A stretch of 64,000 nucleotides of DNA from Cliona cf. orientalis. Lineage: Eukaryota > Porifera > Demospongiae > Clionaida > Clionaidae. The notes under the pieces are model-generated. The model was not told the origin of the DNA. It saw only the letters and a program-made list of their open reading frames with translations, and did not search any database. The position numbers and the translations under genes are program-made. Location: positions 10,397,029-10,461,028 of the forward strand of contig OZ005692.1 of NCBI GenBank assembly GCA_963930775.1, given 5' to 3'. Shown here in pieces: positions 24,186 through 35,381 of the stretch (position 1 is its first letter; every line of letters begins with the position of its first letter).

Positions 24186-27100
24186 TCAGGTCTTTACTCG
24201 CTGTTCTGCTTGCTGTAACATGTTGAGTATGGTTGAGAAGTCTGGTCGTTCCTCAGGGTCATACTGCCAACACAGTTGCATCACTTCGTACACCTCCGTC
24301 GGACAGTCGGCTGGGGCAGGCATACGGTAACCTACCTCAATCTGGAGGAAGGGAGAGAGAGACAGAGAGGAGATTCAATAGATATACTGTACACAAGTTA
24401 GTGTCTCTCTCTCTTCCCTCCTTTTCCCTCTGCTTTCTCTCTCACTCTCTTTCTTTCTGCCTCTCTCAATTTCTCTCAGTTCCACTGTACACTATCAGCT
24501 ACTTCATTTCATACTTGTGTACACACAGCAAAGCTTACCTGTGATCTTGCGTCATGGTTTGACATTCCAGGGTAAGGTGCTGATCCACACGAAAACACCT
24601 CCCAGAGCAAAATACCGAAGCTCCATACATCACTCGATGTTGTGTACTTGCCATAATTTAATGCCTGAAGAAACACGGATACAATTTACACCATCCAATA
24701 GCAATAAAGTTAAGGCATGTAGGGAGGAAGGGAGGGAGGAAGGGAGAGAGAGGGTGGTGGTATAACATGTCTGCTTGTTGCATCTACCACAAGCTGTTTA
24801 GACATTCTCCAGATTACCCCTCCAAAACATATGATTATTGCACACCCATCAGTCAGCCTAACGTCAGTCTTCCACAGGGGGGACCCTTGAGTAAGTGTAA
24901 CAATAACTTAGGCCAGATCAAGTTGTTGCATGGATTCGCTCGCTCCAATTTTTGGGTAAACAGAAAATTAATTAAGTTGGGTGGAGCTTATGTACAGTAG
25001 AGTGGTTTTTGTATTCATCTTGATTCCCTGGTCCTAGATAGTCACATTAGTCTGTCTTAATTAGATTGTGGTCTATAACCACACCCCAATTAATTGCTTT
25101 TTTTTCTTTTTTTTTCGATCGCTCGGTCCAATTTTTACCTCACAATATCCGAGCAACAACAAATTAAATTGGTCTGGCCTTATGATAAAACTTAAGGATG
25201 AGAGAGGGATTAAACGAGCATGCGCCGTATAAAAGGGGCGTGGTCAGGCCAAAAAATGTCATTCGCTAAAATTTTGAACTTACAAAATGGCTGCCTTCTG
25301 CCAAGTGACCGTTCTCGCACTTTTACACCCATAGACACACACTAACAACTGTCAAAAACGCGAATAAAAGCAAGAGCGCTCCAAATAGAACTTTTTGCAC
25401 GTGTTCGCATATTATTTGTTTCGAAGCTGATCTGTGATATTATGTCGAGTTCTAATTCCTCCCGAAAGCGTCATCGCTTCACTCTACAAGCGACTTTCTC
25501 GACTTACCGGGAGAAGGAAGCCTTTGAGCGTCGATTTGAGGCCGTTTGCAAGCTCCTACAACCCGTAGGAGCCCCCACTCTAGACAATCACGGTGTGTTA
25601 TGCGCCTTGTTGGATGCGGTAGAACGGAATGCGAGACCACAGGACAATTCCCCGGGTAATGAGCGCGTGGAAACAAGGAGCTTTCTACGAAACAGTGGTA
25701 AGGCTGAGTATGTGCAGACTATATATGATAGCTATGTTCAAGTGTGTATGCATCACATAGGAGTGTATGTAAGTGATGAGCACCAGGAAGACCAAGCATT
25801 GTTTGTGACCGAAGAGTGCTGTTTTTCTGACCTGGTTGAAGGACTCTGCTCCCCATGTCCCTGTGGGCTGACAATAAAGCCATGGGCTGTGGAGTCTATC
25901 AAACAGGTTACAATATTGTAGCGTCAAGTATAGCAAGCTGTTCGTCATGATCTTCTTGTCCCATAGAAAGGTCATGTGTTGCGTGTGCTGTTCTCTTGCC
26001 GCCGTTGCCATCGGCAAAGGAGGACATGGTCAAGTTCAAGAGTACTCAGTGGGCTCTACTTAGCTAATCAGAAGTAAATTTTAGTGTCGAGTAGAGTGGT
26101 TATATTACCGTTTGTGTTGTTGTAGGTTGGTTCATGGTTTCACTTGCGCTGGTGTGTTGCCTACTCAGTACATCAACTTTTCCAAGTTTTCAGGCATGGG
26201 CAGTGTTGGACATGGCTACATCAGACAAGGTAATTGTCATGCATATACACTGGTTTATTTCAAGAATTCAATAACATTTCAGTATACAATCGCCGTGGGT
26301 ACATTGGCATAGTGGATCGTTTGGCCGAGCAATTCATGAAGAAAGCAGTGGAAGAGGTGGAGACCCTCCCAGACTATGTAACAAAGGGAGAGGTTTGTAT
26401 AAACGTACATGTACATGTATACAAATGAGTGATGTTCTATGTTCACAGTGGGTCATCACTGACGCCAGACATGACTCAACTGCTAATGCCTACCACACCA
26501 CTGTGCCTTGCCTTTCTGGAAGGTGACAATGCTTTTCATTGACAATACTAATTGTTTCTATTGTACCCTATGTACATACAGTACCATGAAGATTGTTGGC
26601 ATTTCTACCATTTCGCGAAGTGAACATCATGTGGCCCAAACTCGTGAACTTGAATGCACTAAGGTAGTTGTGCCCCAAGTCATTGCTCGAGGTAGGTTAT
26701 ATACAATGTGATGTATACTATAATGTGTTGTGTGTATGTGTATAAAATTTGTGTATGTCCATCCAGGTTTGAAAATCGTTGAGATTGCACATGATATGCA
26801 GCTTGCTGTTGGACGCTATGTGAAGCAAGATCTCAAGCTCCTCAACTCCTTTGACACATGGCATGGTACGAAATGGATGGTATACTTTATATTTGAATTG
26901 ATGCGACTACACCATTGTGTGTAGGAACCAAGAATGTTGCCAAGGAGCTCGCCAAAATCACCAAGGGCAGAGTAAGAGATCGTGATGTGACATGGTTTAC
27001 TGAGCTTACGGATAAACGTATGCCACTTGTATGTACTGTGTAGTTATGTGGATAATGTAGTGTACTTTTTCAGGAAGAAGTATTAAAATTCATCTCTACT

Positions 27101-35381: not shown

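Follow-up and report, generated by a model that had tools for sequence, protein, structure and literature searches.

The window, which is the whole stretch of 64,000 nucleotides analysed here (C4:10397029-10461028 of the 217-Mb assembly), records the birth of a candidate dual kinase gene. A 3.6-kb segment of a full-length Fes gene, comprising part of the linker exon, the SH2 and kinase exons and the introns, has been copied into a TKL-Kelch gene of a tandem family, where it lies within the intron and carries a 34-bp inverted filler at its 5' break. Both halves of the locus, the TKL exon and the Fes block, are under purifying selection at the protein level, and a fused transcript is likely. We consider it probable that, with the 3' half of Fes duplicated into the TKL-Kelch intron, transcription from the TKL promoter now yields a chimeric mRNA that begins with the TKL exon and encodes a TKL kinase, a charged coil, an SH2 domain and a tyrosine kinase (TK). 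Here we present the gene model, its origin, the selection acting on its parts, and the other loci of the same genome in which TKL and tyrosine kinase domains are joined.

Gene model and the Fes parent

All eight exons of the predicted dual-kinase chain are present on the minus strand (Table 1), every intron is of the GT-AG type, and the exon lengths total 2478 nt (3 x 826), a multiple of three as the sequence-only reading had counted. The same reading had described a TKL-kinase exon with the donor CAG|GTGAGT in phase 0, which is confirmed for exon 1 (35381-34221, minus strand; donor at 34221), and a linker exon beginning 146 bp further on. The 146-nt gap between exon 1 and the predicted linker exon (34074-33895) is found as described, but the first 40 nt of this exon are not Fes and its acceptor at 34074 is not the native one. 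Read past its donor, the TKL exon meets a stop three codons into the intron.

Regarding the domain content, Pfam placed two kinase stretches and an SH2 domain above the cut-offs, both in the separate halves and in exon 1 joined to exons 3-8 without the linker, and gave neither an F-BAR nor a FERM match for the joined protein. The nearest solved structures of the first kinase are WNK, CTR1 and TNNI3K, at similar scores. The SH2 domain stands directly ahead of the tyrosine kinase domain and is nearest to Fes; for the SH2-kinase part the best solved relative is human Fes/Fps (E 7e-118), in keeping with the earlier assignment of these exons to an SH2 domain and a Fes/Fer-like kinase. The catalytic motifs are intact in both kinases (CAGKK/HRD/DLG in the TKL domain, LTIK/HRD/DFG in the tyrosine kinase).

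Table 1. Positions in the window of the predicted dual-kinase exons, the breakpoint features and the Kelch remnant
Feature	Position	Strand	Remarks
Exon 1, TKL-type kinase domain and charged heptad-like tail	34221..35381	-	387 codons; tail judged by eye
Intron start, homologous to sibling TKL-Kelch intron	34069..34220	-	clear to ~34090, weaker across candidate acceptors 34075/34070
Filler, 34 bp, inverted copy of Fes intron sequence, at 5' breakpoint	34035..34068	-	
Fes-derived 140 nt of linker exon (last 140/189 nt of parent exon)	33895..34034	-	donor GTAATT, phase 0
Intron sequence matching filler in inverted orientation	33389..33422	+	arms 94% complementary
Exon 3, first part of SH2	32991..33176	-	native acceptor, phase 0
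Exon 4, end of SH2 and kinase N-lobe	32480..32820	-	glycine loop GKGLFG, LTIK lysine
Exon 5, kinase	30014..30158	-	
Exon 6, kinase catalytic loop	29513..29695	-	
Exon 7, kinase	24539..24664	-	
Exon 8, kinase C-terminus and stop	24186..24341	-	
Entire duplicated Fes block	24096..34034	-	from C19 786002-789560; introns kept, two much longer than in parent
Broken Kelch exon, former 3' partner of TKL exon	23000..23899	-	

A near-identical gene was found on contig C19 by searching the genome with the SH2-kinase protein. Window 34034-24096 aligns to C19 786002-789560 with the introns included, 6/6 introns between the seven shared exons lie at the same places in both copies, and the linker exon is matched by only two loci genome-wide, the window and C19. 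Upstream exon pieces on C19, picked by eye, match the F-BAR of human FES (4dyl; E 3e-8); an FCH family search of the genome gave no C19 place among the matches listed. The earlier statement that F-BAR exons are absent is correct for the window, where the block starts inside the linker exon, but not for the genome, and their loss from the genome was rejected on the strength of the C19 pieces. Compared with Fes/Fps-Fer (the C19 parent; human FES 3bkb, 4dyl), the window gene is alike in linker, SH2 and kinase sequence, with exon borders as in C19, and differs in being without F-BAR, in the TKL exon in front and in the replacement of the first 49 nt of the parent linker.

On the 5' side, BLAST traces TKL-family homology from 35552 to 34157, and alignment extends it to ~34090. 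On the 3' side, Kelch-family homology extends up to 24100, overlapping the end of the Fes homology (24096) by 5 bp. The Fes block sits between the start and the end of one TKL-Kelch intron of the tandem family; in the sibling at 21 kb, ~2 kb of the intron (17820-19894) had no counterpart in this unit at the cut-off used. With the TKL-Kelch tandem genes of the array the window unit has in common the TKL exon, the donor, the intron start and the 3' flank with Kelch, and it differs from them in its broken Kelch exon and in the SH2-tyrosine kinase inside the intron. The domain swap that had been proposed as the origin of the gene is well supported as a DNA duplication, namely a copy of the C19 Fes block with breakpoints on both sides. 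The parent gene on C19, the Kelch remnant and the other TKL-tyrosine kinase loci were not part of that proposal.

Reverse-transcriptase-like frames were seen by eye (30259-32204, plus strand) within a Fes intron that measures 2321 bp in the window vs 229 bp in the parent, and the intron after the linker exon holds an inverted-repeat element with CAGTGGCGTAGC-type ends (33593-33853). Elsewhere in the window are a gag-pol-like retroelement (2175-8078, plus strand) picked out of the ORF list by eye on its zinc knuckle, reverse transcriptase and integrase-like sequence, a 927-aa single-exon frame resembling a class C GPCR (46963-49746, minus strand; by eye), and more TKL and Kelch exons on both strands (40194-46309 and 55962-62665).

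The 5' junction and selection on the two halves

In the alignment to C19, the Fes homology of the linker exon begins only at 34034. The parent exon starts CAG|CATGCCATTGG and is 189 nt long, and the window retains its last 140 nt. The first 40 nt of the predicted exon consist of TKL-intron-like sequence and the 34-bp inverted scrap of Fes intron (34068-34035), an inverted match to window 33389-33422 with its C19 counterpart at 786609-786640. Acceptor 34074 is not native because the breakpoint lies inside the linker exon and the sequence ahead of it is filler and TKL-intron-like; the native linker acceptor of Fes is lost in the window. The identification of the linker as a plain Fes exon was rejected on the same breakpoint.

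Acceptors were scored with a matrix built from 28 trusted sites, which is a small set. Acceptor 34074 scores 1.4, below 26 of the 28, whereas 34069 scores 10.7, above 26 of the 28; the native SH2 acceptor at 33176 scores 4.4 on the same matrix. Donor 34221 scores 10.4 (21 donors: median 7.2, highest 11.9). The sequence-only reading had named 34069 as the acceptor that would break the frame. Its use does shift the frame, with a stop after 23 codons as read by eye, and it is the likelier of the two acceptors if the linker is included; skipping of the linker from 34221 to 33176 joins phase 0 to phase 0 and restores the frame. The chain from TKL through SH2 to TK is open in frame via two predicted splice routes, 33176 or 34074. 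Since the acceptor set is small, the preference for 34069 over 34074 is a lean and not a verdict.

If the fused transcript were spliced mostly through 34069, it would mainly yield a TKL kinase cut short and ending in a tail of 23 residues, and only low-level skipping of the linker would give the Fes part. Such an outcome would fit the early stop and the advantage of 9 bits over 34074, which is subject to the size of the matrix, but w is 0.10 over the 424 codons of Fes, a value that argues for a Fes part made in useful amount, and we regard this splicing pattern as quite improbable.

The comparison of these 424 codons between the Fes copy and its parent gave 62 synonymous and 27 nonsynonymous changes (dS 0.275, dN 0.027, w 0.10, bootstrap 0.06-0.16, 0 replicates at 0.5 or above). 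Under neutrality, ~126 nonsynonymous changes would be expected on the window lineage alone, against the 27 on both lineages, and ~26 indels in 1277 exon bp, against the one (3 bp) seen; the neutral rates were taken from four alignable introns, two others having been left out for large insertions. A neutral window copy is rejected by these values. Regarding the TKL exon, its protein is 87-93% identical to those of the eight best-matching other full-length copies on C4, and its pairwise w is 0.13-0.36. The w of its lineage is ~0.2 (95% 0.08-0.48), like that of its siblings; it averages over the whole time since the lineage separated from them, without isolating the period after the Kelch exon was broken. 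A coincidental joining of dead pieces is likewise rejected, given the selective constraint on either half.

The Kelch exon (~23899-23000, minus strand) carries two frameshifts and two stops. Substitution rates were set aside as a sign of its decay: pairs involving the broken copy (23000-23899) give w of 1.06 and 1.32, but the intact sibling exons 9331-10281 and 16697-17710 also give 0.77, so that only the frameshifts and stops count. Kelch is possibly a diversifying recognition domain. Taken together, the low w values and the broken Kelch exon indicate that the two kinase halves were kept and the old Kelch partner was not.

The broken Kelch exon belongs to the same TKL-Kelch unit and would also suit a dead duplicate, in which the Fes block is an unexpressed fragment beside a decaying TKL-Kelch gene. 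Copy and parent differ at 27 residues, 26 by substitution and one by the loss of its codon; the residue that follows DFG (M to R) is one of these sites. With human FES as the outgroup, 10 of the 27 are window-derived, 2 parent-derived and 15 unpolarised. The excess of 10 vs 2 (two-sided P 0.04) suggests that the constraint on the window copy may be partly relaxed, which again would suit a dead fragment. With w at 0.10, a single in-frame indel in 1277 bp and all shared splice sites kept, the truncated linker acceptor excepted, a dead duplicate is very improbable.

Constraint on the Fes block requires expression, not fusion, and could also be met by two separate genes. A new promoter within the 146-bp gap or the linker would then drive the SH2-kinase block, and translation from a linker ATG would give a short cytoplasmic Fes, like FerT; the TKL exon would end in its own intron or splice to the Kelch remnant. 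FerT is an N-terminally short Fer made from an alternative transcript of Fer; it likewise has an SH2-kinase part without F-BAR, whereas the window holds a separate duplicated locus behind a TKL exon. An in-frame ATG lies at linker codon 28, with 0 nonsynonymous changes in the 19 codons from there on, and the 27 codons ahead of the ATG, with 3 nonsynonymous and 2 synonymous changes, give no clear sign of translation. All this would suit a separate short protein. Yet the block left its 5' exons behind on C19, the TKL exon is constrained despite its broken Kelch partner, and other loci carry TKL and SH2/SH3/TK parts in one continuous frame; we hold two separate genes to be unlikely, though well worth considering.

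Several points count against the fused gene: the frame-breaking acceptor 34069 is strong on the matrix and 34074 weak; the Fes-derived linker, with 0 indels and 6 mismatches over its 140 bp (P 0.04 for the former and 0.03 for the latter), looks constrained, which is awkward if it is skipped; the ATG at codon 28 would allow a separate short Fes protein; the constraint on the window copy may be partly relaxed; and that on the TKL exon is an average reaching back to the split from its siblings. In Fes, the F-BAR and coil serve self-association, and the SH2 domain steers and activates the kinase. For the fused gene, which we prefer, the position of the breakpoint suggests that the block left its own promoter and F-BAR exons behind; the Kelch exon decayed, probably after the duplication, and selection on the TKL exon and the Fes block was maintained. 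The TKL promoter and exon would drive a chimeric mRNA, spliced from 34221 to 33176 or, less efficiently, through 34074, both in frame. In the protein, self-association may rest with the TKL coil instead of the Fes F-BAR/coil, and the tyrosine kinase may be steered and activated by the SH2 domain as in Fes. The sequence-only reading had proposed that TKL output could feed tyrosine phosphorylation.

Other loci with TKL and tyrosine kinase domains

A TKL-SH2-tyrosine kinase gene is plausible in the window because such genes exist elsewhere in the same genome, in which at least 109 TKL-family matches were found. Among the matches listed, 63 SH2/TK places were compared with 107 TKL places: 16/63, which fall in six loci with the window counted, are preceded by a TKL on the same strand at no more than 2 kb, none has an opposite-strand TKL within 4 kb, and nine same-strand pairs have the TKL within 2 kb downstream, as tandem arrays give. 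Five further loci, on C8, C10, C6, C2 and C4 (8.6 Mb), place a TKL-family exon ahead of SH2/TK domains, and complete in-frame models were obtained at two of them, C8 (TKL-SH2-TK) and C10 (TKL-SH3-SH3-SH3-SH2-TK).

On C10, a 580-aa open frame holds TKL and three SH3 domains; the spliced product is 950 aa from two exons, with both kinases, the three SH3 domains and SH2 above Pfam cut-offs. C8 carries two tandem TKL-SH2-TK genes of Fes-like exon structure, and a 479-aa open frame there (TKL and SH2) probably spans an 81-nt intron that keeps the frame. C8 gene 2 has eight exons with GT-AG introns and encodes 729 aa on the plan TKL, linker, SH2 and onward; its entry phases (0,0,0,0,2,0,0,0) are those of the window exons, and the nearest PDB relative of its SH2-TK part is Fes (5e-62). 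C6 has a 523-aa open frame with TKL and one SH3. On C2 (7893665-7897642, plus strand; L029:666-4643), a 1326-aa open frame contains a partial TKL, three degenerate tyrosine-kinase-like domains and an SH3, and on C4 the frame 8624886/8623728 has one stop between its halves. The order TKL, SH2, TK is the same in these genes (C8 genes 1 and 2, C10, C6; also the loci on C2 and at C4 8.6 Mb) as in the window. C8 shares the phase-0 TKL donor with the window gene, and its gene 2 the exon plan; C10 and C6 carry SH3, unlike the window gene. The two C8 tyrosine kinases are degenerate in their catalytic motifs, whereas that of the window is intact and a recent copy of C19 Fes.

Outside the window, 15/18 TKL-linked TK domains are degenerate at HRD or DFG (both C8 genes, 3/4 on C10, 5/5 on C2, 3/3 on C4 8.6 Mb and 2/4 on C6). 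C10 1138816 and C6 5773391 are intact, and C6 5772549 retains HRD and DFG on an open piece without an N-lobe. Among the TKL domains of the motif table, 13/15 keep K, HRD and DLG/DFG, both exceptions being on C4 (8614925, 8617649). A single 2925-aa open frame on C17 (2316541-2325315, minus strand; L036/L037) has one SH2 and ten tyrosine-kinase stretches, 9/10 of them without the standard HRD-DFG pair and the last being the exception.

A quick tree built from 32 TKL domains puts the window TKL among the Kelch-type copies of the array (SH-aLRT 82-92, none starred), apart from the TKLs of C8, C10, C2, C6 and C4 8.6 Mb. The fewest label changes in this tree are two, with only one forced by starred branches, and the label 'with TK' is imperfect in that it included C8 1628950, beside which no TK frame was found, and database proteins seen only with SH2 or SH3. 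As the window gene took its TK half recently from C19 Fes, and none of the TKL matches listed adjoins that gene, the join of TKL and Fes in the window is a recent event of its own, separate from the other TKL-TK genes.

Regarding database relatives, P0001 is a 746-aa frame with TKL, a coil and a second kinase; a search with P0001 gave no second frame covering both kinases among the 120 of 1931 matches listed. P0002 and P0003 hold TKL and SH2 above cut-off, and P0004 is nearly identical to C8 gene 1, its SH2 being below the reporting threshold. Eight clusters (P0121-P0128) with kinase and SH3 domains align to 98-99% of the C10 exon at 71-100% identity; P0121 probably comes from this genome itself, and the three whose ends were read, P0121, P0123 and P0128, finish in HK, the position of the C10 donor. 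P0202 has kinase and Kelch domains in one frame. A sponge-specific Src family, Src-Aque1, is described (PMC8662651). The TKL-SH2-TK architecture was not found among the open-access papers listed on the subject, and it may have been mentioned earlier elsewhere.

Relation to JAK and significance

Serine/threonine-type and tyrosine kinases are, to our knowledge, rarely joined in one chain. JAK is the known SH2 family with two kinases, and its roots are unclear; it has two kinase domains and an SH2 domain in one cytoplasmic protein, with FERM and the order SH2-pseudokinase-kinase. The predicted window protein is like JAK in its two kinases and SH2, and in the sister loci one of the two kinases looks catalytically dead. 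It differs in being without a FERM match, in a first kinase that is TKL-type and intact, and in the opposite order, with the TK after the SH2.

We lean slightly towards a wider reading, in which the exon for the TKL kinase is a mobile module for the N-terminus, fused on more than one occasion with cytoplasmic tyrosine kinases (Fes-like SH2-TK, and SH3-SH2-TK in the order of Src). This would have given a TKL-(SH3)-SH2-TK class of dual kinases, most of which pair an active-looking TKL with a tyrosine pseudokinase, JAK-like with the order reversed. The window gene would be a young member with an origin of its own and two intact catalytic sites, in which the parents, the breakpoints and the discarded Kelch can still be read.

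These two kinds of kinase are also joined in several other genes of this genome, which may point to an overlooked way of wiring signalling proteins. With a family of such genes at hand, and with the origin of one candidate followed back to a duplication from one large contig to another, the making of dual kinases becomes directly testable. The bias towards pseudokinases (15/18) suggests that such fusions may commonly end with one kinase regulating the other.
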